A stretch of DNA of 64,000 bases from Lucinisca nassula (taxonomy: Eukaryota > Mollusca > Bivalvia > Lucinida > Lucinidae): the NCBI GenBank assembly GCA_963580285.1, contig OY757020.1, forward strand, positions 101,249,497 to 101,313,496, written 5' to 3'. Every line of letters starts with the position of its first letter. The first letter of the stretch is position 1. Below, one piece after another: positions 4,383-57,645 of the stretch. The position numbers were made by a program, and so were the translations under genes. The notes under the pieces are model-generated. The model made no database searches. It had not been told where the DNA came from and saw only the letters and a program-made list of their open reading frames with translations.

Positions 4383-4387
4383 ATCGT

Positions 4388-6347: not shown

Positions 6348-6496
6348 TGATGATGATGATGATTTCGTGTTTAACGACGCGTCAACCCTCTTTGTGGGTC
6401 ATAAGCGTCAAACGGTTGATGGTTAAACGGCATGAATAATTATTATGATATTAAAAGTAAAAAGTCAAAATGATAATGTATAAAAATCTGAAACAG

Positions 6497-10183: not shown

Positions 10184-10215
10184 TTTAAGGAGAGATATTT
10201 AAAGACTAGAAACTA

Positions 10216-12887: not shown

Positions 12888-12915
12888 TGATGATGATGAT
12901 GATTTCGTGTTTAAC

Positions 12916-12949
12916 GACGCGTCAACCCTCTTGGTGGGTCATAAGCGTC
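12916..12949 (-). promoter_or_regulatory. Conserved LINE 3' UTR stem-loop (copy C)
   Basis: GACGC pairs with GCGTC, and an inner ACCC pairs with GGGT, just before the trinucleotide tail. The same arrangement is seen in the other copies and, with different loop sequence, in the diverged copy E at 44158-44188. It may be the RT recognition structure; this is inference. Confidence 0.5.
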
Positions 12950-13036
12950 AGTCGGTTAATGGTTAAACGGCATGAATAATTATGACGATATTAAAAGTAA
13001 CAAGTCAGAATGATAATGTATAAAAATCTGAAACAG

Positions 13037-16000
13037 TTAAATCTTATGAAAAAGACCAATTTCTTTTAAGAATAAAATAATGTTATCAACAGGTACATCT
13101 CGAAACAGTTGTTGCAAAGTGTCAGCTTTGAAATATAAAATACGTGAGGGTGAAAAGTCAACACAGTCAATTAAGATATGTTTCACAGTGAATGGCTGAT
13201 CACAACCTATACAAGAAGGCTGATCATCACCATTAAAAATGTAAGAATGAGTAACTCTAGTATGGCCGATGCGCAGTCGTGTTAATACTACGTCCTCTTT
13301 TCTGGAAAACTGTGGAGGAGAGCATTTTGTACTAACGACAGGTTTAATGGCATGGAGTTTGTTATTTATTGCACGGTCCCATTCGCCTTGCCATTCCGAC
13401 AAGATGTATCTATTGATAAATGGTTTAAAATTATTAAAAGGAATTTTAAAAACAGATGGATCAAGATTGAGCGATTCCTTTGCTTTCTTGTCAGCATATT
13501 CATTGCCGACAATGCCAATATGGCTCGGAAGCCAACAAAACAAGATTTGGTGTGTTTTAGAAATTTCATGATGTTTTTCGATCAATTTTTGAATTTGAGG
13601 ATTTTTAGATGATGAATGGTCTAAAGCCTTAAGCACAGAAAGTGAATCAGAAAATATAATTGCTTTTTGAATTGTTGAAGAACTGATAAAATCTAAAGCT
13701 AGGTCTATTGCTTTGGCTTCAGCTGTAAAAATAGATGAACCATCTGGAAGGCGCATGGTTTTGTGCGTATCTTTAGAAACATACGCACAACCAACTTTAT
13801 CTCCTTCTTTGGAACCATCAGTATAGACTTGCTGGTAATCATCGTAACGTGATTGCAGTACCTGAAAGTTTTGTTTGAGAAGTATCGGATTTGATTCGGA
13901 TTTTTTGCCATCATGTAAGTCGAACAGAATAGAAGGTTGTTTAATACACCAAGATGGAACTTCGGCGGTTTCATGTTTTTGAATATTTTTAAGGTCGATA
14001 CCTGAATTTTCAAGCAGTGGTAAAATACGTAATCCAAAAGGTTTAATTGCTGTGGGTTTAGTTTCATACCTATCTATAAATTGAGGTCGAAATGAAATTT
14101 TGGATGCCGGGTTAGATGGATTTGCAGCAAGTCTAATAGCATATTGAAGAGAAAGTTTCTCTCTGCGCGAGGTTAAAGATGGTTCACCTGCTTCTACATA
14201 AAGGCTTAATACGGGAGAAGTACGGAAGGCTCCCATGGCCAGACGAAGGCCTTGGTGATGGATAGTATCCAAGGATTTTAAATAGGACTTTCTGGCAGAA
14301 CCATAAACAACAGACCCATAATCTAATTTAGATCTTATTAAAGACCGGTAAAGATGTAATAAAGTATACCGATCTGCTCCCCAACTTGTATGAGCTAAAA
14401 CTTTCAAAAGATTCAAAGCTTTTAAGCATTTCGCTTTAAGATATTTAATATGGGGAATAAAAGATAACTTTTGATCAAATATGACCCCAAGAAATTTGGC
14501 TTCTTCAACAACAGGAATTTGTGATCCGTATAAAAACAGGGAAGGATGTTCGTGTTTCTTCCGTAGTTTACAAAAATGAACACACTGCGTTTTCGACTTG
14601 GAGAACTTGAAACCATTTTTATCAGTCCATTCTTCTATTCTTTTTAAATTTTGTTGTAACTTTCGTTCAATTGTTTTCATATTTTTTGAACGGTAACATA
14701 TACAAAAATCATCAACATACAATGAACAATCAGTTTTGTCGTCCAAACATTGTACAATATTGTTTATTTTGATGTTAAATAGCGTAGTTGAAAGAATACT
14801 ACCCTGTGGGACACCCTGTTCTTGATCATAGAAATCTGACACGGTAGACCCCACACGCACCTGAAACATGCGCTCCCCTAAAAAGCTTTCAATAAAACTG
14901 GGAAGTTTTCCTCTTAAGCCAATGTTATGTAGATCTTTCAATATTCCATAACGCCATGTTGTATCATATGCTTTCTCCAAGTCGAAAAAGACAGCTACTA
15001 CGTGTTCTTTGTTAATAAAAGCATCTCGTATAAATGTTTCTAGTCTTATTAAATTGTCATTGGTACTACGTTCCGAACGAAAGCCCGATTGATATTCTGA
15101 AATGAGGTTGTTGGACTCTAAGTACCAGACTAATCTCTTGTTTATCATTCTCTCCAATGTTTTACACAAACAACTTGTCAAAGCTATCGGACGATAATTT
15201 GTAGGTTCTGCGTGATCTTTCCCTGGTTTCGGAATTGGTACAACTGTAGCTACACGCCAGCTCTCAGGACAGACCCCCGTTTCCCAAATATTATTAAAGA
15301 TATCTAAAAGTGTTGTAAGAGAACTTTTTGGCAGATGCTTAAGCATCTGATAATGAATTTCATCGGGGCCGGTTGCCGTATCATGTGATTTTTCAATGGC
15401 TTCAACGAGTTCGGATAAGTTAAAAGGTTTGTTGTATTCTTCGTGATTAAGTGATTTAAAGTTTAGATTTCTTTTCTCTTGGTTCTTTTTGAAATTTCTA
15501 AAAGTGTCAGAATAATTACGTGATGATGAATTTCTCAAGAATGTGTGCCCGAGAGTATCTGAAATATCTTTTTTTGTTGAAGCTATTGTGTCAAATTCAG
15601 TATTCAAATGTGTAAAACTAGAAGACTTTGTTTTTCCTGAAATTTTTCGTACCATATCCCAAACCTTTTTAATGGGGGTTTTATAGTTCAATTTGGAGAC
15701 ATATTCTCTCCATGACTTTCGTTTTGAAGCTCGGATTGTTCGCCGAGCTTTAGCTCTAAAAACTTTTACGTCGTTGAGCTTTTCTGAAGTGGGATTTTTG
15801 CAGAACTTATTTAGAGCCTGTTTACGCTTTTTAATAGCTTCTTTACAGTCATTATTAAACCAAGGCTTGCTTTTCTTAGTATTTGTGGAGGTCTTTGGAA
15901 TGCATTGTTCTGATATGTTAATAAGTGTATCTGTGAAATCAGAAACAATGTCAGATGATTCATTTAAGTGATCAACTGATAACTCTTCTTCACATAAATT

Positions 16001-16723
16001 ATGGAATAATTCCCAGTCGGCTTTATTCATTTTCCATTTCTGGTTACAGTCTTCATCTGGTTCGTTTACGCTCTCTATTATAACAGGAAAGTGATCACTT
16101 CCGCACTGATCATCATGAACAGACCAGTCATAGTCCAAGAAGAGAGATGGGTGACACAAAGAGAGATCTAAAGAAGACAAATGACCTGTCGCAGGGTGAA
16201 GGTAAGTATAAGATTTATCATTCATCAAGCAAAGATCGTTCTTTGCAATAAAATCTTCGACAAGTGCTCCTCTGTTATTGACATCTTTACAGCCCCATAG
16301 AATATTGTGACCATTGAAGTCGCCAACTAAAAGATATGGCGATGGAAGTTGACTCAGCAATGAGTCAAGATGTTCGGGCTTTAAAGAAAATGAGGGTGGG
16401 ATATATAGAGAGCAAACTGTAGTTTCTTTATCCAGAGAAACCGATACTGCTACAGCTTGAAGGTCGGTTTTTAATTTGATCTCTCTTTGTGGTAAACATG
16501 ATTTAACAAAAATTGAGCTGCCACCAGATGGTTTGTTACCATCAGAATAGATATAGTTGTATGTATTGAAACCCCTGACATCTATGTTGTCATCAGTTTT
16601 TAAAAAAGTTTCTTGCAAACAAAACACCGATGGGGTTAGTAGCGAAATAAGTAATAAGAGTTCATTATAATTTGATTTAAGACCTCGACAATTCCATTGT
16701 ATTATTTTGTGTTTTAAATCCAT
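13037..16723 (-). CDS. LINE copy C ORF2: endonuclease, RT, RNase H (1228 aa)
   Basis: Same architecture and length as the copy B ORF2. Endonuclease motifs (Glu38, Gly-Asp-Phe-Asn, Ser-Asp-His), the RT motifs including Tyr-Val-Asp-Asp, the four RNase H acidic residues and the terminal Cys/His motif are all present. It differs from copy B at about a dozen residues, such as Thr-Val-Ser for Thr-Leu-Ser near 628 and Ile for Val in the final zinc motif. It ends with Leu-Phe-His-Lys-Ile. With the intact ORF1 upstream and clean target duplications it is likely a functional replicase; activity is untested. Confidence 0.93.
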   Translation of the reverse strand: MDLKHKIIQWNCRGLKSNYNELLLLISLLTPSVFCLQETFLKTDDNIDVRGFNTYNYIYSDGNKPSGGSSIFVKSCLPQREIKLKTDLQAVAVSVSLDKETTVCSLYIPPSFSLKPEHLDSLLSQLPSPYLLVGDFNGHNILWGCKDVNNRGALVEDFIAKNDLCLMNDKSYTYLHPATGHLSSLDLSLCHPSLFLDYDWSVHDDQCGSDHFPVIIESVNEPDEDCNQKWKMNKADWELFHNLCEEELSVDHLNESSDIVSDFTDTLINISEQCIPKTSTNTKKSKPWFNNDCKEAIKKRKQALNKFCKNPTSEKLNDVKVFRAKARRTIRASKRKSWREYVSKLNYKTPIKKVWDMVRKISGKTKSSSFTHLNTEFDTIASTKKDISDTLGHTFLRNSSSRNYSDTFRNFKKNQEKRNLNFKSLNHEEYNKPFNLSELVEAIEKSHDTATGPDEIHYQMLKHLPKSSLTTLLDIFNNIWETGVCPESWRVATVVPIPKPGKDHAEPTNYRPIALTSCLCKTLERMINKRLVWYLESNNLISEYQSGFRSERSTNDNLIRLETFIRDAFINKEHVVAVFFDLEKAYDTTWRYGILKDLHNIGLRGKLPSFIESFLGERMFQVRVGSTVSDFYDQEQGVPQGSILSTTLFNIKINNIVQCLDDKTDCSLYVDDFCICYRSKNMKTIERKLQQNLKRIEEWTDKNGFKFSKSKTQCVHFCKLRKKHEHPSLFLYGSQIPVVEEAKFLGVIFDQKLSFIPHIKYLKAKCLKALNLLKVLAHTSWGADRYTLLHLYRSLIRSKLDYGSVVYGSARKSYLKSLDTIHHQGLRLAMGAFRTSPVLSLYVEAGEPSLTSRREKLSLQYAIRLAANPSNPASKISFRPQFIDRYETKPTAIKPFGLRILPLLENSGIDLKNIQKHETAEVPSWCIKQPSILFDLHDGKKSESNPILLKQNFQVLQSRYDDYQQVYTDGSKEGDKVGCAYVSKDTHKTMRLPDGSSIFTAEAKAIDLALDFISSSTIQKAIIFSDSLSVLKALDHSSSKNPQIQKLIEKHHEISKTHQILFCWLPSHIGIVGNEYADKKAKESLNLDPSVFKIPFNNFKPFINRYILSEWQGEWDRAINNKLHAIKPVVSTKCSPPQFSRKEDVVLTRLRIGHTRVTHSYIFNGDDQPSCIGCDQPFTVKHILIDCVDFSPSRILYFKADTLQQLFRDVPVDNIILFLKEIGLFHKI

Positions 16724-16755
16724 TTTAAGGAGAGATATTTAAAGACTAGAAACTA

Positions 16756-18150
16756 TTATGGAGGTGCAATTGGTGATATAGATCTGCTACCACCAGCTCG
16801 TGGTGTGGCAGACCTCGATCTGTTATTGCCACTTGGTGATGATGGAGTTTCAGTCAACTCCATATCACTGTCACTCAAAGATCCGAATCTGTTCTGAAAT
16901 TTTATATTGTCTCTTTCCATTTTACGTTGTCTGTCTGTTTGTCTTTGAGACAATTGATGTTTTTTTATCGGATCTTGCGACCCCTTATTAGTTCGACCTG
17001 GGTCGGGTTTCTCTTTTACATTCGGCGCTGGCTTCGGTACGGTCGCTGTCGACCGATCCGAAGCAACCTGGATTGCGCCTTTTGATAAATTGGTTGAACT
17101 TTGTGGTGCTGGAGTGGATTTACTCCATGCACCAGACTTTTTCAGTTCAGCAATGTATGATTCAGCAGTCTGTGTTGCGGAGCTGGTACATTTTACACCA
17201 GCACCCTTTGTGATGCTGGCGAAACTGGTGGTTGGTGTTATGTATCGCTCTTCGACAATCTTCCGCGCTTCTGGGAATGTTATCCCCCTTTGGTATTTGA
17301 CGGTAAGTATTTCTTTTTCTTTTTTCCACGCCGGACAGTCTCGGGAGAAAACAGCATGTTTGCCATCACAATTTACGCATTTGGGTTCATTTTTGCAGTT
17401 GAGGTGATTATCAACATGCTTTTCTTCACCACAATTAGGACAGAGTTTTTTTCTCTGACATCTGCTTTCGTGATGGCCAAAAGCCTGACAAGAGTAACAT
17501 CTAAGAGGGTTTGGGATGTATACCTCTACGTTAATGGAAAGATATGCTACTTTGATTTTCTTGGGTAGAATTGGTGTATTAAAAGTCAACACATAAGTTG
17601 CTGTTGGTTTTAGTACACCATTTCTACGAACTTGAATGTTACGAACACCAACAACTCCCTGATCCTTAAGGTTATCGACTATCTCTTCATCTGAGCAAGG
17701 ACGCAGTTCTGGACTGCGAATCACTCCCTTAGATGAATTGAGCGTGTTATGTAAAGCGACTTTAACTTTTAGATCAAAGAGTTTATTGGTGTTTAGCAGG
17801 CTTACCACTTGCTGTTTTTTCTCGACTTCCAAGAGAAGATCACCCGATTTGAGTTGTTTTATACTCTTAGGGTGTCCGGCAATGGAGAGAATACTTTTCT
17901 CGATGACGAAGGGGGAAAGGCTAGATACAGTTCGTGTATCGTCAAGTGACGTAACGACCAAGAAACGCGGAACATTGTCAAAATTTGGTTCAGCAGACTG
18001 CTGACTAGATTGTTGACTTGACTGCTGACTGGATTGTTGACTGTGTTCATCCGATTCGGATGAATCTTCTTGTTTTTTACGTTTAGGTGCGTTGTGGTTA
18101 GGTGATTTGCGGTTAGGTGATTTGCGGTTATGTTTTTTTCCAGGAGCCAT
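16756..18150 (-). CDS. LINE copy C ORF1: gag-like RNA-binding protein (464 aa)
   Basis: Nucleic-acid chaperone of the LINE RNP. It starts Met-Ala-Pro-Gly-Lys-Lys, with a basic then Ser/Gln-rich tract (repeated Ser-Gln-Gln-Ser at about 38-52). A folded region at about 60-215 follows, and then three CCHC-type zinc knuckles at about 218-231, 237-252 and 258-272. The tail is Ser/Thr/Pro-rich and basic and ends Ile-Ala-Pro-Pro. ORF2 starts 32 bases downstream in element orientation. This copy is unbroken, whereas copy B has lost one base. Confidence 0.92.
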   Translation of the reverse strand: MAPGKKHNRKSPNRKSPNHNAPKRKKQEDSSESDEHSQQSSQQSSQQSSQQSAEPNFDNVPRFLVVTSLDDTRTVSSLSPFVIEKSILSIAGHPKSIKQLKSGDLLLEVEKKQQVVSLLNTNKLFDLKVKVALHNTLNSSKGVIRSPELRPCSDEEIVDNLKDQGVVGVRNIQVRRNGVLKPTATYVLTFNTPILPKKIKVAYLSINVEVYIPNPLRCYSCQAFGHHESRCQRKKLCPNCGEEKHVDNHLNCKNEPKCVNCDGKHAVFSRDCPAWKKEKEILTVKYQRGITFPEARKIVEERYITPTTSFASITKGAGVKCTSSATQTAESYIAELKKSGAWSKSTPAPQSSTNLSKGAIQVASDRSTATVPKPAPNVKEKPDPGRTNKGSQDPIKKHQLSQRQTDRQRKMERDNIKFQNRFGSLSDSDMELTETPSSPSGNNRSRSATPRAGGSRSISPIAPP

Positions 18151-18700
18151 AAGAAAAAAATTCTAGTTTCGTCCCAAGTGCTCTCCGCCCTCCGTGGAGC
18201 CCTACAAGGGAACACCATACTGGAGTGGTTATCCAACTCGCAGATGTTAGAGATACACGTGAGATATACTCGTATAAACAAAATGCCTACACGATTGATC
18301 CGTTAAGCCACCGCCTTCTAGAGATAAAAAGACAGAAAAGGGTAAGGTAAATGGGCATATGGTTGGTATCAGGAAAGATACAAAAAGAGTTGAAGAGAAA
18401 GCAAAGCGGTATCTCTAGGGCTCGGCGTGACCAGCCGATTGACCGTGCCGGACCGCACGGCCACCCGTCTACACCGAAAAGCCAGGCCAAAGAGGCGTGT
18501 TGGGCACCTGAAGCACCGCCACCTCAGGTAACCCTCAACCTCCAGGATCCCTTCTTCCGGTTTACAGGACGCCACCCACGGCAAACGGGTGGTACTTCCT
18601 TTAGCTCTTCCCAGTGGGCACATTGACCACAGCAGCAACGTGCCCAGTGGGAATTGAGCCCCCAGGGCCACGGCAAGGCAGGAAGTCTAATACCTGGGGG

Positions 18701-25545: not shown

Positions 25546-25718
25546 CATGTTGTCCCCAATCTTTTTATATCGATGATGATGATGATTTCGTGTTTAACGA
25601 CGCGTCAACCCTCTTTGTGGGTCATAAGCGTCAAACGGTTAATGGTTAACGGCAATTAGAATTATGAGGATATTAAGAATAAAAAAGTTAGTTTGATATG
25701 TATAAAAATCTTAAACAG

Positions 25719-28700
25719 TTAAATATTATGAAAAAGTCCAATTTCTTTTAAGAATAAAATAATATTTTCAAAAGGTACATCTTGAAACAATTGTTGCAAA
25801 GTGTCAGCTTTGAAGTATAAGTTACGGGACTGTGAAAAGTCTACACATTCAATTAAAATGTTTCACAGTGAATGGCTGATCACAGCCTACACAGGAAGGC
25901 TGTTCATCACCATTTAAATTAAAAGAATGAGTAACTCTAGTATGGCCAATGCGCAGTCGTGTTAATACTACATCCTCTTTCCTGGAAAACTGTGGAGGAG
26001 AGCATTTAGTTCCAACGACAGGTTTAATGGCATGGAGTTTGTTATTTATTGCACGGTCCCATTCGCCTTGCCATTCCGACAAGATGTATCTATTGATAAA
26101 TGGTTTAAAATTATTAAATGGAATTTTAAAAACAGACGGATCAAAATTGAGCGATTCCTTTGCTTTCTTGTCAGCAGACTCATTGCCGACAATACCAATA
26201 TGGCTCGGAAGCCAACAAAACAAGATTTGGTGCGTTTTAGAAATTTCATGATGTTTTTCGATCAGTTTTTGTATTTGAGGATTTTTAGATAATGAATGGT
26301 CTAAAGCCTTAAGCACAGAAAGTGAATCAGAAAATATAATTGTTTTTTGAAATGATGAAGAACTGATAAAATCTAAAGCTAGGTCTATTGCTTTGGCTTC
26401 AGCTGTAACAATAGATGAACCATCTGGAAGGCGCAAGGTTTGGTGCGTATCTTGAGAAACATACGCACAACCAACTTTTTCTCCTTCTTTTGGAACCATC
26501 AGTATAGACTTGCTGGTAATCATCATAACGTGACTGCAATACCTGAAAGTTTTGTTTGAGTAGCATTGGATTTGATTCGGATTTTTTACCATCATGTAAG
26601 TCAAACAGAATAGAAGGTTTTTTAATACACCAAGATGGAACTTCCGCCGTTTCATGTTTTTGAATATTTTTAAGGTCGATACCTGAATTTTCTAGCAGTG
26701 GTAAAATACGCAATCCAAAAGGTTTGATTGCTGTGGGTTTAGTTTCATACTTATCCACAAATTGAGGTGGAAATGAAATTTTGAATGCCGGGTTAGATGG
26801 ATTAGCAGCAAGTCTAATAGCATACTGAAGAGAAAGTTTCTCTCTGCGCGAAGTTAAAGATGGTTCACCTGCTTCTACATAAAGGCTTAATACGGAATAG
26901 GTACGAAAGGCTCCCATAGCCAGACGAAGGCCTTGGTGATGGATAGTATCCAATGATTTTAAATAGGACTTTCTGGCAGAACCATAAACAACAGACCAAT
27001 AATCTAATTTAGATCTTATTAAAGACCGGTAAAGATGTAATAAAGTATACCGATCTGCTCCCCAACTTGTATGGGCTAAAACTTTCAAAAGATTCGAAGC
27101 TTTTAAGCATTTCGCTTTAAGATATTTAATATGGGGAATAAAAGATAACTTTTGATCAAATATGACCCCAAGAAATTTGGCTTCTTCAACAACAGGAATT
27201 TGTGATCCGTATAAAAACAAGGAAGGATGTTCGTGTTTCTTCTGTAGCTTACAAAAATGAACACACTGCGTTTTCGACTTGGAGAACTTGAAACCAATTT
27301 TATCAGTCCATTCTTCTATTCGTTTTAAATTTTGTTGCAACTTTCGTTCAATTGTTTTCATATTTTTTGAACGGTAACATATACAGAAATCGTCAACGTA
27401 CAAGGAACAATCAGTTGTGTCGTCCAAACATTGTACAATATTGTTTATTTTGATGTTAAAAAGCGTAGTTGAAAGAATACTACCCTGTGGGACACCCTGC
27501 TCCTGATCATAGAAATCTGACACGGTAGACCCCACACGCACCTGAAACATGCGCTCCCCTAAAAAGCTTTCAATAAAACTGGGAAGTTTTCCTCTTAAGC
27601 CAATGTTATGGAGATCTTTCAATATACCATAACGCCATGTTGTATCATATGCTTTCTCCAAGTCGAAAAAGACAGCTACTACGTGTTCTTTGTTAATAAA
27701 AGCATCTCGTACAAATGTTTCTAGTCTTACTAAATTGTCATTGGTACTACGTTCCGAACGAAAACCCGATTGATATTCTGAAATGAGGTTGTTGAACTCT
27801 AAGTAACAGACTAATCTCTTATCATTCTCTCCAATGTTTTACACAAACAACTTGTCAAAAGCTATCGGACGATAATTTGTAGGCTCTGCATGATCTTACC
27901 CTGGTTTCGGAATTGGTACAACTGTAGCTACACGCCAGCTCTCAGGACAGACCCCCGTTTCCCAAATATTATTAAAGATATCTAAAAGTGTTGTAAGAGA
28001 ACTTTTTGGCAGATGCTTAAGCATCTGATAATGAATTTCATCGGGGCCGGTTGCCGTATCATGTGATTTTTCAATGGCTTCAACTAGTTCGGATTAGTTA
28101 AAAGGTGTGTTGTATTCTTCGGGATTAAGGGATTTGAAGTTAAGTTTTCTTTTCTCCTGGTCCTTTTTGAAATTTCTAAGTGTCAGAATAATTACGCGAT
28201 GGTGAATTTCTCAAGAATGTGCTCCCAAGAGTATCTGAAATATCTTTTTTTGTTGAAGCTATTGGGTCAAATTCAGTATTTAAATGTGTAAAATTAGAGG
28301 ACTTTGTTTTTCCTGAAATTTTTCGTACCATATCCCAAACCTTTTTAATGGGGGTTTTGTAGTTCAATTTGGAGACATATTCTCTCCATGACTTTCGTTT
28401 TGAAGCTCGGGTTGTTCGCCGAACTTTAGCTCTAAAAACTTTCACGTCGTTTAGCTTTTCTGAAATGGGACATTTGCAGAACTTATTTAGAGCCTGTTTA
28501 CGCTTTTTAATAGCTTCTTTACAGTCATTATTATACCAAGGCTTGCTTTTCTTAGTATTTGTGGAGGTCTTTGGAATGCATTGCTCTGATATATTAATAA
28601 GTGTATCTGTGAAATCAGAAACAATGTCAGATGATTCATTTAAGTGATCAACTGATAACTCTTCTTCACATAAATTATGGAATAATTCCCAGTCGGCTTT

Positions 28701-29398
28701 ATTCATTTTCCTTTTCTGGTTACATTCTTCATCTGGTTCGTTTACGCTCTCTATTATAACAGGGAAGTGATCCTTCCGCACTGATCATCATGAACAGACC
28801 AGTCATAGTCCAAGAAGAGAGATGGGTGACACAAAGAGAGATCTAAAGAAGACAAATGACCTGTCGCAGGGTGAAGGTAAGTATAAGATTTATCATTCAT
28901 CAAGCAAAGATCGTTCTTTGCAATAAAATCTTCGACAAGTGCTCCTCTGTTATTGACATTTTTACAGCCCCATTGAATATTGTGACCACTGAAGTCGCCA
29001 ACTAAAAGATATGGCGATGGAAGTTGACTCAGCAATGAGTCAAGATGTTCGGGCTTTAAAGAAAATGAAGGTGGGATATATAGAGAGCAAATTGTAGTTT
29101 CTTTATCCAGAGAAACCGATACTGCTACAGCTTGTAGGTCTGTTTTTAATTTGATCTCTCTTTGTGGTAAACATGATTTAACAAAAATTGAGCTGCCACC
29201 AGATGGTTTGTTACCATCAGAATAGATATAGTTGTATGTATTGAAACCCCTGACATCTATGTTGTCATCAGTTTTTAAAAAAATTTCTTGCAAACAAAAC
29301 ACCGATGGGGTTAGTAGCGAAATAAGTAATAAGAGTTCATTATAATTCGATTTAAGACCTCGACAATTCCATTGTATTATTTTGTGTTTTAAATCCAT
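25719..29398 (-). pseudogene. LINE copy D ORF2, multiply broken
   Basis: The order is that of the family ORF2. The endonuclease part is 29398-28754; a deletion at the Ser-Asp-His motif (GTGATCCTTCC at about 28768) shifts the frame. The linker is 28781-28176. The early RT (28175-27662) has an in-frame stop in the Leu-Ser-Glu-Leu region and other lesions. RT and linker resume at 27661-26399, and RNase H at 26655-25849 after an extra base near 26490. Tyr-Val-Asp-Asp and the RNase H residues can still be read. It cannot make a protein. Confidence 0.88.
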
Positions 29399-29430
29399 TT
29401 TAAGGAGAGATATTTAAAGACTAGAAACTA

Positions 29431-30813
29431 TTATGGAGGTACAATAGGTGATATAGATCTGCTACCACCAGCTCGTGATGTGGCAGACCTCGATCTGTTA
29501 TTGCCACTTGGTGATGATGGAGTTTCATTCAACTCCATATCACTGTCACTCAAAGATCCGAATCTATTCTGAAATTTTATATTGTCTCTTTCCATTTTAC
29601 GATGTCTGTCTGTTTGTCTTTGAGACAATTGATGTTTTTTGATCGGATCTTGCGACCCCTTATTAGTTCGATCTGAGTCGGGTTTCTCTTTTGCATTCGG
29701 CGCTGGCTTCGGTACGGTCGCTGTCGACTGAACCGGAGCAACCTGGATTGCGCCATTTGATAAATTGGTTGAACTTTGTGGTGCTGGAGTGGGTTTACTC
29801 CATGCACCAGATTTTTTCAGTTCAGCTATGTATGATTCAGCAGTCTGTGTTGCGGAGCTGGTACACTTTACACCAGCACCCTTTGTGATGCTGGCGAAAC
29901 TGGTGGTTGGTGTTATGTATCGCTCTTCGACAATCTTCCGCGCTTCCGGGAATGTTATCCCCCTTTGGTATTTGACGGTGAGTATTTCTTTATCTTTTTT
30001 CCACACCGGACAGTCTCGGGAGAAAACAGCATGTTTGCCATCACAATTTACGCATTTGGGTTCATTTTTGCAGTTGAGGTGATTATCAACATGCTTTTCT
30101 TCACCACAATTAGGACAGAGTTTTTTTCTCTGACATCTGCTTTTGTGATGGCCAAAAGCCTGACAAGAGTAACATCTAAGAGGGTTTGGGATGTATACCT
30201 CTACGTTAATGGAAAGATATGCTACTTTGATTTTCTTGGGCAGAATTGGTGTATTAAAAGTCAACCCATAAGTTGCTGTTGGTTTTAGTACACCATTTCT
30301 ACGGACTTTGATGTTACGAACAACAATAACCCCTTGATCTTTCAGGTTATCAATGATCTCTTCGTCTGAACAAGGACGCAGTTCTGGACTGCGAATCACT
30401 CCTTTAGATGAGTTTAGTGTGTTGTGAAGAGATATTTTTACCGAAAGATCAAAGAGTTTTTTGGTGGCGAGCAGGCTTACAACTTGCTGTTTTCTCTCGA
30501 GTTCCAAGAGAAGGTCACCTGATTTGAGTGATTTAATACTCTTTGGGTGTCCGGCTATGGCGACAATACTTTTCTCGATAACAAAGGGAGAAAGGCTTGA
30601 CACAATTCGTGTATCGTCAAGCGACGTGACGACCAAGAAACGCGGAACATTGTCAAAGTTTGGTTCAGCAGACTGCTGACTTGATTGTTGACTTGACTGC
30701 TGACTGGAATTTTGACTGTGTTCATCCGATTCGGATGAATCCTCGTCTTTTTTACGTTTAGGTGCGTTGCGGTTAGGTGCGTGGGTGCGGTTATGTTTTT
30801 TTCCATGAGCCAT
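29431..30813 (-). CDS. LINE copy D ORF1 (about 460 aa), open
   Basis: Gag-like ORF1 of copy D. I start at the ATG at 30813 (Met-Ala-His-Gly-Lys-Lys), the homologue of the copy C start; the frame extends upstream to 30843 without support. Ser/Gln tract, conserved N-terminal region, three zinc knuckles and a basic tail are all present. It differs from copy C in many residues (for example Arg-Ile-Val-Ser-Ser for Arg-Thr-Val-Ser-Ser). It survives as an ORF although its partner ORF2 is dead. Confidence 0.8.
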   Translation of the reverse strand: MAHGKKHNRTHAPNRNAPKRKKDEDSSESDEHSQNSSQQSSQQSSQQSAEPNFDNVPRFLVVTSLDDTRIVSSLSPFVIEKSIVAIAGHPKSIKSLKSGDLLLELERKQQVVSLLATKKLFDLSVKISLHNTLNSSKGVIRSPELRPCSDEEIIDNLKDQGVIVVRNIKVRRNGVLKPTATYGLTFNTPILPKKIKVAYLSINVEVYIPNPLRCYSCQAFGHHKSRCQRKKLCPNCGEEKHVDNHLNCKNEPKCVNCDGKHAVFSRDCPVWKKDKEILTVKYQRGITFPEARKIVEERYITPTTSFASITKGAGVKCTSSATQTAESYIAELKKSGAWSKPTPAPQSSTNLSNGAIQVAPVQSTATVPKPAPNAKEKPDSDRTNKGSQDPIKKHQLSQRQTDRHRKMERDNIKFQNRFGSLSDSDMELNETPSSPSGNNRSRSATSRAGGSRSISPIVPP

Positions 30814-31255
30814 GAGAAAAAAAAACTCATAGTTTCGTCCCAAGTGCTCTCCGCCCTCCGTGGAGCCCTACAAGGGAACACCATAATGGAGTGGTTATCC
30901 AACTCGCAGGTGTTAGAGATACACGTGAGATATACTCGTATAAACAAACCTACAAATGCCTACACGATTGATCCGTTAAGCCACCGCCTTCTAGAGATAA
31001 AAAAAAACAGAAAAGGGTAAGGTAAATGGGTATATGGTTGGTATCAGGAAAGATACAAAAAGAGTTGAAGAGAAAGCAAAGCGGTATCTCTAGGGCTCGG
31101 CGTGACCAGCCGATTGACCGTGCCGGACCGCACGGCCACCCGTCTACACCGAAAAGCCAGGCCAAAGAGGCGTGTTGGGTACCTGAAGCACCGCCACCTC
31201 AGGTAACCCTCAACCTCCAGGTTCACGGCAAGGCAGGAAGTCTAATACCTGGGGG

Positions 31256-44157: not shown

Positions 44158-44188
44158 GACGCTATATGCCCTATTAGGGTTGAGCGTC
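44158..44188 (+). promoter_or_regulatory. LINE copy E 3' UTR stem-loop
   Basis: GACGCT pairs with AGCGTC, with inner CCCT/AGGG. Same position and outer stem as in the main LINE family, although the loop and flanks have diverged. Confidence 0.5.
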
Positions 44189-44230
44189 TTTAAATAAAAC
44201 ATCCATCCATCCATCAACATTGGCAATATT

Positions 44231-48084: not shown

Positions 48085-48192
48085 ATCCTAGGCGTCTTCA
48101 GAAAACTTTGCAATCGTTTTAATGTCTTTAGCCTTAGTGAGTTGTTAGACCAAGTGGGGGTGCGTTTTGCACTTTGAGCTGATATCTACTTT

Positions 48193-48205
48193 ATCTTAAC
48201 AGCCG
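48193..48205 (+). repeat. Target-site duplication, left copy (composite F/G)
   Basis: ATCTTAACAGCCG, repeated at 56100-56112 (15 bp if the preceding TT is counted). It encloses copies F and G together. Confidence 0.9.
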
Positions 48206-48765
48206 CCCCCAGGTATTAGACTTCCTGCCTTGCCGTGGCCCTGGGGGCTCAATTCCCACTGGGCACATTGCCGCTGTGGTCTCTGTGCCCACTGGGAAGA
48301 GCTAAAGGAAGTACCACCCGTTTGCCGTGGGTGGCGTCCTGTAAGCCGGAAGAAGGGATCCTGGAGGTTGAGGGTTACCTGAGGTGGCGGTGCTTCAGGT
48401 ACCCAACACGCCTCTTTGGCCTGGCTTTTCGGTGTAGACGGGTGGAAGTGCGGTCCGGCACGGTCAATCGGCTGGTCACGCCGAGCCCTAGAGATACCGC
48501 TTTGCTTTCTCTTCAACTCTTTTTGTATCTTTCCTGATACCAACCATATGCCCATTTACCTTACCCTTTTCTGTCTTTTTTTTATCTCTAGAAGGCGGTG
48601 GCTAAACGGATCAATCGTGTAGGCATTTTGTTTATGCGAGTATATCTCACGTGTATCTCTAACACCTGCGAGTTGGATAACCACTCCATTATGGTGTTCC
48701 CTTGTAGGGCTCCACGGAGGGCGGAGAGCACTTGGGACGAAACTATAATTTTTTCCTTATGCCTA

Positions 48766-50106
48766 ATGGAAAAAAAACATAACCGCAACGCATCCAAACG
48801 TAAAAAAGATGAGGAATCATCCGAAACGGATGAACCCAGTCAGAAGTCTAGTCAACAGTCAAGCCAGCAGTCTGCAGCACCAAAGCAACTTAATTTTCCA
48901 CGCTTCTTGGTAATGTCTTCATGTGAAGATACACGCACTGTGTCAAGTCTATCCCCATTCGTGATAGAAAAGAGCATCATGTCCATTGCCGGACATCCCA
49001 AAAGCATAAAAACGCTTAAGTCAGGTGACCTTTTATTAGAAGTCGAGAGAGAGCAGCAGGTGAAAAGCCTGCTTGGTACCACAAAGCTCTTCGATCTCAA
49101 GGTCAAAGTATCTCTGCATAATACACTTAATTCGTGTAAAGGTGTTATCCGCAGCCCAGAGCTCCGTCCTTGCAGTGATGCAGAGATAGTTGAGAACTTG
49201 AGATCGGAAGGCGTCATTGGTGTACGTAACATCCAAGTTCGTAGAGGTGGTGTATTGAAGCCAACGGGTACCTACGTGTTGACTTTTAATACACCAGTTC
49301 TGCCCAAGAAAATAAAAGTAGCATATCTTTCAGTTAACGTGGATGTATATATACCAAACCCTCTCAGATGTTACTCGTGTCAGGTTTTTGGCCACCACGA
49401 AAGCAGATGTCAGAAGAAAAAACTCTGTCCAAATTGTGGTGAAGAAAAACATGTCGATAACCATCAAAACTGTAAGAATGAGGCCAAATGTGTAAATTGT
49501 GGTGGCAAGCATGCTGTTTTCTCTCGAGATTGTCCGGCATGGAAAAAAGAAAAAGAAATACTTACTGTCAAATACCAAAGGGGGATAACATTCCCAGAAG
49601 CGCGGAAAATTGTTGACGAGCGATACACAACACCAACCACCAGTTACGCCAGCATCACAAAGGGTGCTGGTAAACAAGTTTCAAGCTCAGCAACACAGAC
49701 TGTTGAATCATGCATAGCTGAATTAAAGAAATCCGGTGCATGGAGCAAATCCACTCCAGCACCACAAAGTTCAACCAATTTATCAAATGGCGCAATCCAG
49801 GTTGCTGCGGATCGGTCGACAGCGACCGTACCGAAGCCAGCGCCGCATGTAAAAGAGAAACTCGACCCAGGTCGAACTAATAAGGGATCGGAAGATCCGA
49901 AAAAGCAATTGTCTCTAAAACTAACAGACAGACAACGTAAAATGGAAAGAGACAATATAAAATTTCAGAACAGATTCGGATCTTTGAGTGACAGTGATAT
50001 GGAGTTTGAAGCTCCATCATCACCAAGTAGCAATAACAGATCGAGGTCTGCAACACCACGAGCTGGTGGTAGCAGATCTATATCACCAATTGCAGCTCCA
50101 ATATAG
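48766..50106 (+). CDS. LINE copy F ORF1 (about 446 aa)
   Basis: Gag-like ORF1 homologous to copy C. The family start (ATG at 48759) is out of frame because the A run at 48770-48777 has one extra base. The next ATG, at 48766, gives Met-Glu-Lys-Lys-His-Asn and an open frame to 50106. The upstream open frame from 48598 is 5' UTR. Ser/Gln tract, conserved region, three zinc knuckles (near 49370-49530) and a basic tail are present. Possibly still functional with a slightly shortened N-terminus. Confidence 0.8.
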   Translation: MEKKHNRNASKRKKDEESSETDEPSQKSSQQSSQQSAAPKQLNFPRFLVMSSCEDTRTVSSLSPFVIEKSIMSIAGHPKSIKTLKSGDLLLEVEREQQVKSLLGTTKLFDLKVKVSLHNTLNSCKGVIRSPELRPCSDAEIVENLRSEGVIGVRNIQVRRGGVLKPTGTYVLTFNTPVLPKKIKVAYLSVNVDVYIPNPLRCYSCQVFGHHESRCQKKKLCPNCGEEKHVDNHQNCKNEAKCVNCGGKHAVFSRDCPAWKKEKEILTVKYQRGITFPEARKIVDERYTTPTTSYASITKGAGKQVSSSATQTVESCIAELKKSGAWSKSTPAPQSSTNLSNGAIQVAADRSTATVPKPAPHVKEKLDPGRTNKGSEDPKKQLSLKLTDRQRKMERDNIKFQNRFGSLSDSDMEFEAPSSPSSNNRSRSATPRAGGSRSISPIAAPI

Positions 50107-50888
50107 TTTCTAGTCTTAATCTCTTCATAAAATGGATTTAAAACACAAAATAATACAATGGAATTGTCGAGGTCTTAAATCAAATTATAACGAACTGTTA
50201 TTACTTATTTCGTTATTAAACCCATCGGTTTTTTGTTTGCAAGAAACTTTTTTAAAAACTGATGACAACATTGATGTCAGGGGTTTCAATACATACAACT
50301 ATATCTATTCTGATGGTAACAAACCATCTGGTGGCAGTTCAATTTTTGTTAAATCATGTTTACCACAAAGAGAGATCAAATTAAAAACAGACCTACAAGC
50401 TGTGGCAGTGTCAGTTTCTCTGGATAAAGAAACTACAATTTGCTCTCTATATATCCCTCCCTCATTTTCTTTAAAGCCCGAACAGCTTGACACATTGCTG
50501 AGTCAACTTCCATCGCCATATCTTTTAGTTGGCGACTTCAATGGTCACAATATTCTATGGGGCTGTAAAGATATCAATAACAGAGGAGCACTTGTCGAAG
50601 ATTTTATTGCAAAGAGCGATCTTTGCCTGATGAATGATAAATCTTATACTTACCTTCACCCTGCGACAGGTCATTTGTCTTCTTTAGATCTCTCTTTGTG
50701 CCACCCATCTCTCTTCTTGGACTATGACTGGTCTGTTCATGATGATCAGTGCGGAAGTGATCACTTCCCTGTTATAATTGAGAGTGTAAACGAACCAGAT
50801 GAGGACTGTAACCAGAAATGGAAAATGAATAAAGCCGACTGGGAATTATTCCATAATTTATATGAAGAAGAGTTATCAATTGATCATT

Positions 50889-52795
50889 AGCTCACCTGTC
50901 ACGTAGTGACGAGGTGAGCTTTTGGGATCACTTTTTGTCCGTCGTCCGTCGTGCGTGCGTGTGTGCGTGTGTGCGTGCGTGCGTGCGTGTGTGCGTAAAC
51001 TTTTTCTTCAAATGACATCTCCTCCTAAACCACTGATCGGATTTTGACCAAACTTCACAGGAATGATCCTTAGGTGGTCCCCTTTCAAAGTTGTTCAAAT
51101 GGTTCCGGTTCATTGCACATCTGGGTCACAGGAGCTAAAAATAGATTTTTGAAATGAAAACTTTAAAAATCTTCTTCTCTGAAACCAAAAGGCCCAGGTC
51201 TTCGATATTTGGTATGAAGCTTCATCTAGTGGACCTCTACCAAGATTGTTCAAATTATGGCCCTTGGGCCAGAAATGCCCCCGCCCCTGGGGCCTTTGTG
51301 TTTACATAGGCTTATAAAGGGAAAATCTTTAAAAATCTTCTTTTCTGAAACCACAAGGCCCAGGTCTTTGATATTTGGTGTGAAGCTTCACCTAGTGGAC
51401 CTCTACCAAGATTGTTCAAATTATAGCCCTAGGGCCAAAAATGCCCCCGCCCCGGGGGCCTTTGGTTTTACATAGGCTTATACAGAGAAAATCATTAAAA
51501 ATCTTCTTCTCTGAAACCGAAAGGCCCAGGTCTTTGATATTTGGTATGAAGCTTCATCTAGTGGACCTCTACCAAGATTGTTCAAATTATGGCCCTTGGG
51601 CCAGAAATGCCCCTGCCCCGGGGGCCTTTGGGGTTTACATAGGCTTATATAGGGAAAGTCTTTAAAAATCTTCTTCTCTGAAACGGCAAGGCTCAGATCT
51701 TTGATATTTGGTGTGAAGCTTCATCTAGTGGACCTCTACCAAGATTGTTCAAATTATAGCCCTTGGGCCAAAAATGTCCCCGCCCCGGGGGCCTTTGGTT
51801 TTACATAGGCTTATATAGGGAAAATCTTTAAACATCTGCTTCTCTGACACCACAAGGCTCAGGTCTTTGATATTTGGTGTGAAGCTTCACCTAGTGGACC
51901 TCTACTAAGATTGTTCAAATTATAGCCCCAGGGCCAAAAATGCCCCCGCCCAGGGGGCCTTTGGTTTTACATAGGCTTATACAGGGAAAATCTTTAAAAA
52001 CCTTCTTCTCTGAAACCGAAAGGCCCAGGTCTTCGATATTTGGTATAAAGCTTCATCTAGTGGACCTCTAACAAGATTGTTCAAGTTATGACCCTTGGGC
52101 TGGAAATGCCCCCGCCCCGGGGGCCTTTGGGGTTTACAAAGGCTTATATAGGTAAAATCTTTAAAAATGGTCTTCTCTGAAACCACAAGGCCCAAGTCTT
52201 TGATATTTGGTATGAAGCTTCACCTAGTGGACCTCTACAAAGTTTGTTCAAATTTTAGCCCTAGGGCCAAAAATGCCCCCGCTGGGGGGCCTTTGGGTGC
52301 TTATATAGGGAAAGTTTTAAAAATCTTCTACTCTGAAACCACAAGTCCCAGGTCTTTGATATTTGGTGTGAAGCTTCACCTAGTGGACCTGTACCAAGAT
52401 TGTTCAAATTATAGCCCTGGGGCCAAAAAAGCCCCTTGGCGGGGGCCTTTGGTTTTACATAGGCTTATACAGGGAAAATCTTTAAAAATCTTCTTCTCTG
52501 AAACCGCAAGGCTCAGATCTTTGATATTTGGTGTGAAGCTTCATCTAGTGGACGTGTACCAAGATTGTTCAAATTATAGCCCTCGGGCCAAAAATGCCCC
52601 CATCCCCGGGGCCTTTAGGTTTTTCATAGGCTTATTTATGGAAAATATTTAAAAATCTTCATCTCTGAAACCACAAGGCTCAGGTCTTTGATATTTGGTA
52701 TGAAGCTTCACCTAGTATAGCCCTTGGGCCAAGAATGTACTAGAGACACTGATTCTCAGGTGAGCGATTCAGGGCCCTCTGGGCCCTCTTGTTTT
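50889..52795 (+). mobile_element. R3: non-autonomous element with ten ~165-bp repeats
   Basis: Begins with a hairpin, AGCTCACCT-GTCAC / GTGAC-G-AGGTGAGCT (50889-50920), followed by a CGTCC/GTGCGTG microsatellite. About ten tandem units (51170-52740) each contain GATATTTGGT[A/G]TGAAGCTTC and CTAGTGGACCT. It ends AGGTGAGCGATTC and a GGGCCC palindrome (AGGGCCCTCTGGGCCCT, 52771-52787) before CTTGTTTT. No transposase. Terminal hairpins plus internal satellites suggest a Helitron/Helentron-type passenger; this is inference. Confidence 0.75.
51170..52740 (+). repeat. Satellite array, about 10 units of ~165 bp
   Basis: GATATTTGG recurs near 51205, 51370, 51535, 51702, 51869, 52034, 52201, 52359, 52522 and 52689, spacing 158-167. 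Units differ at many positions, so the array is not freshly amplified. Short ORFs within it are repeat artefacts. Confidence 0.9.
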
Positions 52796-55700
52796 AATGA
52801 ATCATCCGACATTGTTTCTGATTTCACAGATACACTTATTAACATATCAGAACAATGCATTCCAAAGACCTCCACAAATACTAAGAAAAGCAAGCCTTGG
52901 TTTAATAATGACTGTAAAGAAGCTATTAAAAAGCGTAAACAGGCTCTAAATAAGTTCTGCAAAAATCCCACTTCAGAAAAGCTCAACGACGTAAAAGTTT
53001 TTAGAGCTAAAGCTCGGCGAACAATCCGAGCTTCCAAACGAAAGTCATGGAGAGAATATGTCTCCAAATTGAACTATAAAACCCCCATTAAAAAGGTTTG
53101 GGATATGGTACGAAAAATTTCAGGAAAAACAAAGTCTTCTAGTTTTACACATTTAAATACTGAATTTGACACAATAGCTTCAACAAAAAAAGATATTTCA
53201 GATACTCTTGGGCACACATTCTTGAGAAATTCATCATCACGTAATTATTCTGACACTTTTAGAAATTTCAAAAAGGACCAAGAGAAAAGAAATCTAAACT
53301 TTAAATCCCTTAATCACGAAGAATACAACAAACCTTTTAACTTATCCGAACTCGTTGAAGCCATTGAAAAATCACATGATACGGCAACCGGCCCCGATGA
53401 AATTCATTATCAGATGCTTAAGCATCTGCCAAAAAGTTCTCTTACAACACTTTTAGATATCTTTAATACTATTTGGGAAACGGGGGTCTGTCCTGAGAGC
53501 TGGCGTGTAGCTACAGTTGTACCAATTCCGAAACCAGGGAAAGATCATGCAGAACCTACAAATTATCGTCCGATAGCTTTGACAAGTTGTTTGTGTAAAA
53601 CATTGGAGAGAATGATAAACAAGAGATTAGTCTGGTACTTAGAGTCCAACAACCTCATTTCAGAATATCAATCGGGCTTTCGTTCGGAACGTAGTACCAA
53701 TGACAATTTAATAAGACTAGAAACATTTATACGAGATGCTTTTATTAACAAAGAACACGTAGTAGCTGTCTTTTTCGACTTGGAGAAAGCATATGATACA
53801 ACATGGCGTTATGGAATATTGAAAGATCTACATAACATTGGCTTAAGAGGAAAACTTCCCAGTTTTGTTGAAAGTTTTTTAGGGGAGCGCATGTTTCAGG
53901 TGCGTGTGGGGTCTACCGTGTCAGATTTCTATGATCAAGAACAGGGTGTCCCACAGGGTAGTATTCTTTCAACTACGCTATTTAACATCAAAATAAACAA
54001 TATTGTACAATGTTTGGACGACAAAACTGATTGTTCATTGTATGTTGATGATTTTTGTATATGTTACCGTTCAAAAAATATGAAAACAATTGAACGAAAG
54101 TTACAACAAAATTTAAAAAGAATAGAAGAATGGACTGATAAAAATGGTTTCAAGTTCTCCAAGTCGAAAACGCAGTGTGTTCATTTTTGTAAACTACGGA
54201 AGAAACACGAACATCCTTCCCTGTTTTTATACGGATCACAAATTCCTGTTGTTAAAGAAGCCAAATTTCTTGGGGTCATATTTGATCAAAAGTTATCTTT
54301 TATTCCCCATATTGAATATCTTAAAGCGAAATGCTTAAAAGCTTTGAATCTTTTGAAAGTTTTAGCTCATACAAGTTGGGGAGCAGATCGGTATACTTTA
54401 TTACATCTTTACCGGTCTTTAATAAGATCTAAATTAGATTATGGGTCTGTTGTTTATGGTTCTGCCAGAAAGTCCTATTTAAAATCCTTGGATACTATCC
54501 ATCACCAAGGCCTTCGTCTGGCCATGGGAGCCTTCCGTACTTCTCCCGTATTAAGCCTTTATGTAGAAGCAGGTGAACCATCTTTAACCTCGCGCAGAGA
54601 GAAACTTTCTCTTCAGTATGCTATTAGACTTGCTGCAAATCCATCTAACCCGGCATCCAAAATTTCATTTCCACCTCAATTTGTAGATAAGTATGAAACT
54701 AAACCCACAGCAATCAAACCTTTTGGATTACGTATTTTACCACTGCTAGAAAATTCAGGTATCGACCTTAAAAATATTCAAAAACATGAAACGGCCGAAG
54801 TTCCATCTTGGTGTATTAAAAAACCTTCTATTCTGTTCGACTTACATGATGGCAAAAAATCCGAATCAAATCCAATACTTCTCAAACAAAACTTTCAGGT
54901 ACTGCAGTCACGTTACAATGATTACCAGAAAGTCTATACTGATGGTTCCAAAGAAGGAGATAAAGTTGGTTGTGCGTATGTTTCTAAAGATACGCACAAA
55001 ACCATGCGCCTTCCAGATGGTTCATCTATTTTTACAGCTGAAGCCAAAGCAATAGACCTAGCTTTAGATTTTATCAGTTCTTCAACAATTCAAAAAGCAA
55101 TTATATTTTCTGATTCACTTTCTGTGCTTAAGGCTTTAGACCATTCGTCATCTAAAAATCCTCAAATTCAAAAATTGATCGAAAGGCATCATGAAATTTC
55201 TAAAACACACCAAATCTTGTTTTGTTGGCTTCCGAGCCATATTGGCATTGTCGGCAATGAATGTGCTGACAAGAAAGCAAAGGAATCGCTCAATCTTGAT
55301 CCATCTGTTTTTAAAATTCCTTTTAATAATTTTAAACCATTTATCAACAGATACATCTTGTCGGAATGGCAAGGCGAATGGGACCGTGCAATAAATAACA
55401 AACTCCAGGCCATTAAACCTGTCGTTAGTACAAAATGCTCTCCTCCACAGTTTTCCAGAAAAGAGGACGTAGTATTAACACGACTGCGCATCGGCCATAC
55501 TAGAGCTACTCATTCTTATATTTTTAATGGTGATGATCAGCCTTCTTGTGTAGGTTGTGATCAGCCATTCACTGTGAAACATATCTTAATTGACTGTGTT
55601 GACTTTTCACCCTCACGTATTTTATATTTCAAAGCTGACACTTTGCAACAACTGTTTCGAGATGTACCTGTTGATAACATTATTTTATTCTTAAAAGAAA

Positions 55701-55872
55701 TTGGTCTTTTTCATAAGATTTAACTGTTTCAGATTTTTATACATTATCATTCTGACTTCTTACTTTTAATATCGTCATAATTATTCATGCCGTTTAACCA
55801 TTAACCGACTGACGCTTATGACCCACCAAGAGGGTTGACGCGTCGTTAAACACGAAATCATCATCATCATCA

Positions 55873-56099
55873 ACAACTGTTTCGAGATGTACCTGTTGAT
55901 AATATTATTTTATTCTTAAAAGAAATTGGACTTTTTCATAAGATTTAACTGTTTCAGATTTTTATATATTATCATTCTGACTTTTTACTTTTAATATCAT
56001 CATAATTATTCTTGCCGTTTAACCATTAACCGTTTGACGCTTATGACCCACAAAGAGGGTTGACGCGTCGTTAAACACGAAATCATCATCATCATCATT
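55873..56099 (+). mobile_element. I-like LINE copy G, 5'-truncated, 3' member of composite
   Basis: Last ~227 bases of the LINE, from the ACAACTGTTTCGAG segment of ORF2 to the tail. The 3' UTR is subtype 1 (CACAAAGAGGG, CCGTTTGACG), whereas copy F is subtype 2 (CACCAAGAGGG, CCGACTGACG), so the two come from different source RNAs. Confidence 0.9.
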
Positions 56100-56112
56100 A
56101 TCTTAACAGCCG
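56100..56112 (+). repeat. Target-site duplication, right copy (composite F/G)
   Basis: ATCTTAACAGCCG, identical to 48193-48205. Confidence 0.9.
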
Positions 56113-56270: not shown

Positions 56271-56409
56271 GATGATGATGATGATGATTTCGTGTTTAAC
56301 GACGCGTCAACCCTCTTGGTTGGTCATAAGCGTCAGTCGGTTAATGTTTAAACGGCATGAATAATTATGACGATATTAAAAGTAACAAGTCAGAATGATA
56401 ATGTATAAC
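56271..56409 (-). mobile_element. I-like LINE copy H, 3' end fragment
   Basis: GATGATGATG tail plus ~120 bases of subtype-2 3' UTR in minus orientation, cut before ORF2. No clear target duplication. Confidence 0.8.
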
Positions 56410-57645
56410 AAGAAAAAGTATAACATGTAGTTACATGTTATACATAGGCGTTGCCAAATGTGTATATATCATTACATTAGCGATCACCTTATACACTGAA
56501 ACACCGAGATAATTATGGAGATTCCCTAAACCCTAGGTCATTAAAGAGCAACATTATGAATCCTCTAGACCATATAATGAAACCGAAAACCTAAAAGTAA
56601 AAGAAAGCTTTTCAAACCCCACCGAAACGAAGTAAGCTACATACGAAGGCAAGGCTTAACTGACGTGTGGTTCAAGAGATGTCGCAGAAAGTGTTGATGC
56701 CAGACGACGATAACAGACTAAAACGATAAATACGTTGAACAACTGACCATCCCATAATCTACTAGGAACATATTGCTCTGGTGAGGTACAAAGCTTCTAT
56801 ATATCTGTGAAGTTTCATCCAGATATTCCATATAGTAAGGGAACTAGAGGCCAAAAACCATTTTTCAGATACTTCAAAGGGCAATAACTCTGACAAACAA
56901 AAAATAACGAATTTTGCCCATCAACAATCCCAAACCACTCATCCCCGATACTAATATGTATGCAAAATTTGAACAGAATCCGTGAAAAAATACTCGTTTT
57001 CCGTAGGAATCGAAGTGCGGACGGACGGACACCGGAAGGTATAACATAATACCCTGTCTCATTGAGGTGAACATTTCTGCCAAGTAATATTTAAATCCAT
57101 CAAGAAATAAGAAAGTAATTGCCCGGACAAGACAAAACCTTTTTTAATATATTTAACCTCTAAGTATGACCTTGACCTTTGAGGTACGGACCTGGATCTT
57201 GCGCGCGACACTGTCTCATTGAGGTTAATTTTTCTGCCATGTAATAGTTAAATCCATCCAGAAATAAGTAAGTTATTGATCGGACAGGACAAAACTCATC
57301 CTTTTACCTTTAACCTTAAAGTATGACTTGACCTTTGAGGTATGGACCTGGGTCTTGCGCGCGAAACTGTCTCATAGAGGTGAACATTTCTGTCAAGTTA
57401 AAATTTGAATCTATCCAGAAATAAAATAGTTATTGATCGGACACGACAAAACCCATTTTTTCACCTTTAACCTCTGAGAAAGACCTTGACCTTTCAGTTA
57501 CGGACATGGGTTTTGCGCCAACTGACCAAATATTAACGAAATTGTATCAAAGGGTTGAGGAGATATGGAGCGGACAAGAAAGTGCCACGGACGGAGAGAC
57601 GAAGGGCATTCCTATAATCCCCGCTCTGCTTCGCAGCGGAAGATT
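56410..57645 (+). repeat. Repeat-rich stretch with a ~158-bp tandem array (R5)
   Basis: From about 56760 the sequence has the style of bivalve non-autonomous elements (GGGCAATAACTCTG, GCGGACGGACGGACACC). At about 57052-57520 three units of ~158 bp share CTGTCTCAT[T/A]GAGGT and GACCTTGACCTTT. It ends near CCTATAATCCCCGCTCTGC and its partial complement GCAGCGG. The first ~350 bases show nothing I recognise. Confidence 0.6.

Follow-up and report, generated by a model that had tools for sequence, protein, structure and literature searches.

A composite LINE insertion in the clam Lucinisca nassula joins copies of two subtypes within one target-site duplication, and composites of this kind recur in the genome

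Can one insertion event unite the RNAs of two copies of the same LINE family? A stretch of 64,000 nucleotides from the lucinid clam Lucinisca nassula (GenBank assembly GCA_963580285.1, contig OY757020.1, here C13; hereafter the window) raises this question, as its first-pass annotation described a full LINE copy, F, fused at its tail to the terminal piece of a second copy, G, and proposed that template jumping had made this join and is frequent for the element. We find that the F/G composite is real and recurrent, a LINE-LINE version of known LINE chimeras.

The insertion unit lies at 48193..56112 on the + strand, where copy F is joined straight to the 3'-terminal piece G and both sit within one target-site duplication (TSD; Table 1). 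The duplicated sequence, ATCTTAACAGCCG, occurs only twice in the window, at 48193 and 56100, and there is none between the pieces, both of which the annotation had placed within these duplications; extended to its maximal match of 15 nt it reads TTATCTTAACAGCCG, with no gap between the left TSD and the 5' end of F. The first bases of F, CCCCCAGG at 48206, are the exact 5' end of the element, as in copies B, C and D. F had been called full, and both of its ends are indeed intact, but its ORF2 is split by a foreign insert of ~1.9 kb that is missing from copies B and C. This insert (50887-52792) consists mostly of tandem units at ~166 bp spacing, as seen in self-matches, starts with AGCTCACCTG and ends near CAGGTGAGCGATTCAGGGCCCTC. 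The junction shares two bases, CA, again as annotated, and target DNA between the joined pieces is absent both here and at the B/A junction. Folding of the 3' end of F was unremarkable (z -0.8).

Table 1. Features of the F/G insertion and of the other copies of the LINE family in the window
Feature	Position	Strand	Remarks
Left TSD of F/G	48193..48205	+	13 nt, ATCTTAACAGCCG; maximal match 48191-48205
Copy F, LINE	48206..55872	+	5' and 3' ends intact; subtype 2 3' end; ORF2 interrupted
F ORF1	48634..50106	+	490 aa; three zinc-knuckle-like motifs (pattern)
F ORF2 part 1	50132..50890	+	AP-endonuclease domain (Pfam)
Foreign insert in F ORF2	about 50887..52792	+	~1.9 kb; internal tandem repeats
F ORF2 part 2	53105..55723	+	reverse transcriptase and RNase H domains (Pfam)
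Internal tail of F	55857..55872	+	(ATC)5A; ordinary length
F/G junction	55871..55872	+	2-nt overlap, CA
Piece G	55871..56097	+	last 227 nt of second LINE RNA; subtype 1; element 5587-5813
Right TSD of F/G	56100..56112	+	13 nt; maximal match 56098-56112
Piece A	5128..6347	-	3'-terminal 1220 nt on B's tail; 0-nt overlap
Copy B	6348..12159	-	5' piece of composite B/A; 5' end intact
TSD of B/A	12160-12172 and 5118-5130		13 nt
Copy C	12888..18700	-	simple insertion, full length; 13-nt TSD; used for comparison and as reference
Copy D	25572..31255	-	older simple insertion; 9-nt TSD
Solo 3' piece	56272..56411	-	~139 nt; subtype 2; no clear TSD (by eye)

The two pieces come from different copies. At six sites in the last ~230 nt of the element, F and C share one state and A, B and G the other; G diverges from F at ~4% of sites and carries the opposite state at 6/6 diagnostic sites, which bears out the assignment of F to subtype 2 and of G to subtype 1. 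As G has the other subtype at all six sites, it did not arise by duplication of F's tail. Of these sites, four are covered by the 139-nt piece at 56.3 kb, which has the F/C state there; D, an older copy, matches A, B and G at 5/6. A seventh site sets F apart from A, B, G and D, which are alike, but F and C also differ there.

Within the window, two composites had been counted among about eight copies. Both are real, but they are better expressed as two of the five insertions in which a 3' end survives (B/A, F/G, C, D and the solo piece of 139 nt), with seven 3' ends between them. The LINE family makes up 39% of the bases of the window, and a related LINE with a (CATC)n tail lies at 39165-44217 (~65-70% identity where aligned). 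In copy D the 9-nt TSD and the 5' end are separated by 36 nt of unrelated sequence; 16 other resolved insertions have no gap there, and the extra 36 nt perhaps reflect a further jump or a start site upstream. The stretches 539-5203 and 19117-20658 hold frames like the gag, pol and integrase of LTR retrotransposons and, on the far side of LINEs B/A and C, one like a baculovirus F envelope protein; these frames are possibly one element interrupted by the LINEs.

To count composites genome-wide, we searched the 2.93-Gb assembly with a query from the ORF2 of F alone, which cannot favour composites, and took the best 40 of 539 candidates, all 100% identical after rounding. As the query came from F, these copies resemble F most, and the survey describes near-identical copies rather than older ones. 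We read the 3' sides of 30 loci, and of 10 more as 441-base stretches. One copy (L026) is cut by another copy before its tail, leaving 39 tails: 22 run into other DNA, these simple copies being known from the 3' side alone, and 17 run into a LINE of the same family, 15 in sense and 2 in antisense. Among the 5' flanks of the 16 LINE-entering copies besides F/G, a 5' end was found in 14 and was intact in 13; that of L072 lacks 16 nt, and for L073 and L076 no element 5' end was found in the fetched flanks.

These flanks separated two kinds of join. Nine of the 39 tails belong to nested insertions (L025, L027, L030, L036, L042, L043 and L072 in sense, L044 and L079 in antisense), with host sequence on both sides, called by a TSD of 12-14 nt in eight and by host coordinates in L072; as the duplication lies inside the host copy, these nine look composite only from the 3' side and were rejected as composites. 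The copies at C14:0.84 Mb and C13:40.2 Mb were set aside on the same ground, and the fetched 5' side of the C14 host copy shows no element 5' end. F/G, L037 and L075 are proven composites, with a TSD only after the second piece, and the remaining five tails (L032, L033, L048, L073 and L076) were counted as possible ones. The composite rate among these 39 of the best 40 of 539 candidates is thus 3/39 proven and at most 8/39 (2 to 7 of 38 without F/G). Since 9/17 LINE-entering tails are nested, a composite rate must be counted with 5' flanks. The idea that jumping is frequent therefore stands as to recurrence, but at a rate of 3/39 to 8/39 and not about a quarter.

The same survey illustrates how the family is distributed. 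This one genome contains at least 40 near-identical copies of the LINE, together with some hundreds of candidates. C13 (140 of 2926 Mb) holds 25 of the best 40 near-identical copies (of 539 candidates), and the LINE looks strongly concentrated on this one chromosome. Dense same-family arrays occur at C17:43.48-43.53 and 43.69-43.71 Mb (L010-L014 and L018-L019), where several nesting levels are mixed with multi-piece joins and with a tandem duplication of 7.83 kb; these arrays were kept out of the proven composites. Self-insertion is common (9/39 tails; L025, L036, L072 and others), and dense clusters may be enough to explain it. Simple motif counts did not favour sense-strand targets, and the orientation of self-nesting, 7 sense against 2 antisense in the survey of 39 tails, is too weak to claim a sense bias.

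A genome survey for other composites had been set as a test of the annotation, and four turned up outside the window, bringing the TSD-proven composites to six: F/G, B/A, L037, L075, C13:104.56 Mb and C13:101.88 Mb. Each has a single TSD of 12-15 nt, and its pieces are all in sense and directly joined. In L037 the downstream piece is 606 nt long and in L075 about 685 nt, the first piece of both having been read at its two ends. A second search, with the F/G junction as query, listed 47 matches, with the best 40 of 1390 candidates scored, and favours composites near G's length. It led to C13:104.56 Mb, with a downstream piece of 512 nt and a 13-nt TSD, whose left flank recurs farther downstream, placing the site within a local repeat. 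The composite at C13:101.88 Mb, which this search also brought up, is tripartite: an element with a foreign stretch after position 319 is followed by element positions 4339-5810 and then 5570-5813, with a 12-nt TSD after the third piece. The six composites thus have seven junctions, at seven different breakpoints. The first piece starts at the intact element 5' end in 6/6 composites, and 7/7 downstream pieces are 5'-truncated, at about 0.23-1.47 kb. Where joined pieces cover the same part of the element, they differ by 0.8-6.3% (five composites, L075 left out), from 0.8% in B/A, of which later mutation could be a partial source, to 6.3% between the third and second pieces of the tripartite insertion.

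We consider that F/G is probably one insertion made from two LINE RNAs of different subtypes, by end-to-end template jumping during target-primed reverse transcription. The LINE endonuclease would nick the target, and copying of a 5'-truncated RNA (G) would be primed by the exposed DNA end at that RNA's (AUC)n tail. On reaching the 5' end of G, the reverse transcriptase would carry on, without letting go, into the 3' tail of a second, full-length RNA (F) and copy it through to its 5' end, after which second-strand synthesis would close the insertion and create the target duplication. The locus has one TSD around both pieces, an exact F 5' end, a full internal tail and two source lineages, and the arrangement recurs with different breakpoints. 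From this we infer the order of synthesis, a jump during reverse transcription rather than prior joining of RNAs, and a G RNA that was already truncated. Purified R2 and human L1 reverse transcriptases are reported to yield template-jumping products (PMC11371274, PMC10830420). Against jumping stands the excess of nested insertions (9/39) over proven composites (3/39, F/G included).

The annotation had named template jumping as the cause, and one insertion from the RNAs of two subtypes fits it, but prior RNA ligation would give the same product. Here the 3' end of the F RNA would be joined to the 5' end of the G fragment, by RtcB-type ligation or trans-splicing, and the chimera inserted once; identical architecture and a single TSD are expected, and ligation has been proposed beside template switching for U6/L1 chimeras in the account cited here (PMC13174262). 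The junctions speak to both explanations. A survey of junction microhomology, suggested by the annotation, gave short overlaps of 0-6 nt (2, 0, 1, 6, 2, 1 and 3 nt at the seven junctions of the six composites, the 2 at C13:104.56 Mb read by eye because of a mismatch), but their mean of 2.1 nt, which leaves out two unproven junctions (L033, 0; C14 host, 1), is above the random expectation of 0.76 nt (20000 draws; P 0.005), an excess owed to L075 and one of the tripartite junctions. Such overlap is not required by blunt end-to-end jumping, and its presence counts against that account; ligation requires none either, yet the excess is there, and the tripartite case would require two ligations. We regard ligation first as unlikely.

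That a truncated copy arrived later, in the (ATC)n tail of a copy already in place, and that the repeat conceals its own TSD, is an improbable account of the composites. The family does insert into its own copies, as the nine nested tails illustrate, the (ATC)n tail matches the priming sequence, and truncated pieces occur on their own, one of 139 nt at 56.3 kb and another, 2.3 kb long, that sits nested within the L033 chain. Single tails measure 10-23 nt (mean 16.4, n=22) and nested tails 12-20 nt (n=9); the internal tails of composites are of ordinary length, and their terminal tails (13-20 nt, n=6) do not differ from the 31 others (Mann-Whitney P 0.63). An extra TSD of 12-15 nt hidden in the repeat would bring the sum of internal and terminal tails to ~46 nt, but in the five bipartite composites the sum is 27-41 nt with a mean of 32.8, exactly twice the single mean (32.8) and ~13 nt short of that prediction, with the caveat that (ATC)n tails are microsatellites whose lengths may have altered since insertion. 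Tail insertion would also be expected to leave long second copies, as 16 of 20 sampled single-match rows of the junction query are still within the element 2.4 kb upstream (3 show no LINE and 1 another copy), and yet all seven downstream pieces are truncated; the comparison, made on the first 20 of 30 otherwise unexamined single-match rows, is rough, as two of the seven downstream pieces are shorter than the 0.27 kb required of the 20 rows.

Propagation of a composite, whereby a donor locus already carrying both pieces was transcribed and inserted as one RNA, would likewise leave one TSD, and breakpoints are similar (5570-5594) at several loci, though the junction query favours that range. F/G's junction appeared at no other place among the 47 matches listed (best 40 of 1390 candidates scored), where a copy with the same junction should rank near the top; the two most alike places, on C17, reflect the local 7.83 kb tandem duplication, and some donor would still have had to form the composite. 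We judge this very improbable for F/G. That F's own 3' end was duplicated in tandem or exchanged unequally has next to no chance of being correct: tail microsatellites can slip, but duplication is refuted by the ~4% divergence and opposite subtype of G, and an unequal exchange involving a second locus would destroy the match between the two copies of the TSD.

F itself is an internal mosaic. When F, B, C and D are compared, 36/38 sites uniting B with C lie at element positions 196-2613, and 13/14 of those shared by F and C at 3180-5768; F and B are united at three sites. The divergence of F from C reaches 26% per 200 columns in ORF1 and is 0-3.5% beyond 2800. Judging from these sites, F joins the 5' part of one lineage to the 3' part of another, with a switch near 2750-2975. 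The switch region is close to the foreign ORF2 insert. RNA template switching would explain the mosaic, and gene conversion at the DNA level would do so too. Taking jumping and mosaicism together, we tentatively raise the possibility that jumping from a truncated RNA, unable to complete insertion, to a full-length RNA is a rescue route, so that finished insertions are nearly always 5'-intact, and that the same switching makes mosaic lineages, as a routine form of RNA-level recombination.

The family to which these copies belong has an ORF1 with three knuckle-like motifs (a pattern match in F ORF1; ORF1 gave no Pfam match) and an ORF2 in which Pfam recognises AP endonuclease, reverse transcriptase and RNase H domains, the plan of I-superfamily LINEs. 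This predicted domain content would place it in the I superfamily (Nimb or Ingi). Across the molluscs studied in one survey, only Nimb and Ingi are described as I-superfamily clades, besides an unknown octopus clade (PMC10294476). The first protein relative listed is a sea-spider protein at 54% identity, most of those listed being without names; several that do have names (up to 88%) derive from clam-symbiont assemblies (Thiodiazotropha; Lucinoma), Thiodiazotropha being a symbiont of lucinid clams. Pattern and protein searches of viral contigs returned no relatives, Rfam gave no match at gathering thresholds, and one 21-base pattern match in a bacterial genome collection falls in coding DNA and looks like chance.

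Several known systems offer comparisons. Chimeras of U6 and other small RNAs with LINE-1 are described as TSD-flanked, typically with a full-length upstream RNA fused in sense to a LINE part that is 5'-truncated more often than genomic LINEs, and as independent events, usually without propagation (PMC13174262). The present composites share the flanking TSD, the full-length upstream part, the sense fusion and the truncated downstream part with those chimeras as described; by contrast, both partners are LINE RNAs of the same family, the tail is (ATC)n rather than the L1 poly(A), and the kind of LINE and the host are different. For the MGL LINE of the rice blast fungus, MINE and tripartite chimeras within direct repeats are attributed to single or double template switches, and switches between LINE templates are said to be able to yield mosaic LINEs (PMC2104539). 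Our composites are likewise bipartite and tripartite, but the MGL partners in that account are a non-coding RNA and a SINE, with a GCC*A/U consensus at the switch sites, whereas here LINE joins LINE.

Natural joins of two LINEs are reported as R2/R1 hybrid elements in Drosophila, non-autonomous and with internal deletions (PMC3414825), and an R1-R2 fusion is also mentioned elsewhere (PMC2718515); F/G and B/A resemble these, by description only, in that two LINEs are naturally joined. R2 end-to-end template jumping is described as continuation from a finished template onto another RNA (PMC11371274, PMC2718515), on evidence that in these sources is in vitro or transgenic, whereas our composites arose in nature, from a LINE that has no fixed target site. 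The R1 tandem arrays of Drosophila are head-to-tail copies separated by a 14-bp target duplication, each reported to be a separate site-specific insertion (PMC2718515); no target duplication separates the copies at F/G or B/A. Among the titles and openings of abstracts listed from an open-licence library, we found none on LINE-LINE self-composites in a mollusc.

As far as the sources cited here describe them, natural chimeras mostly join a LINE to a foreign RNA, and in this clam LINE is joined to LINE. About half of the surveyed tail-to-LINE joins are nested insertions, so that 5' flanks are needed to separate the two. Subtype differences, TSDs and a short repeat tail make single events readable base by base, and the copy number in one genome makes the rate of composites, their breakpoints and the choice of partner countable, and the rescue of 5'-truncated cDNAs by jumping testable.
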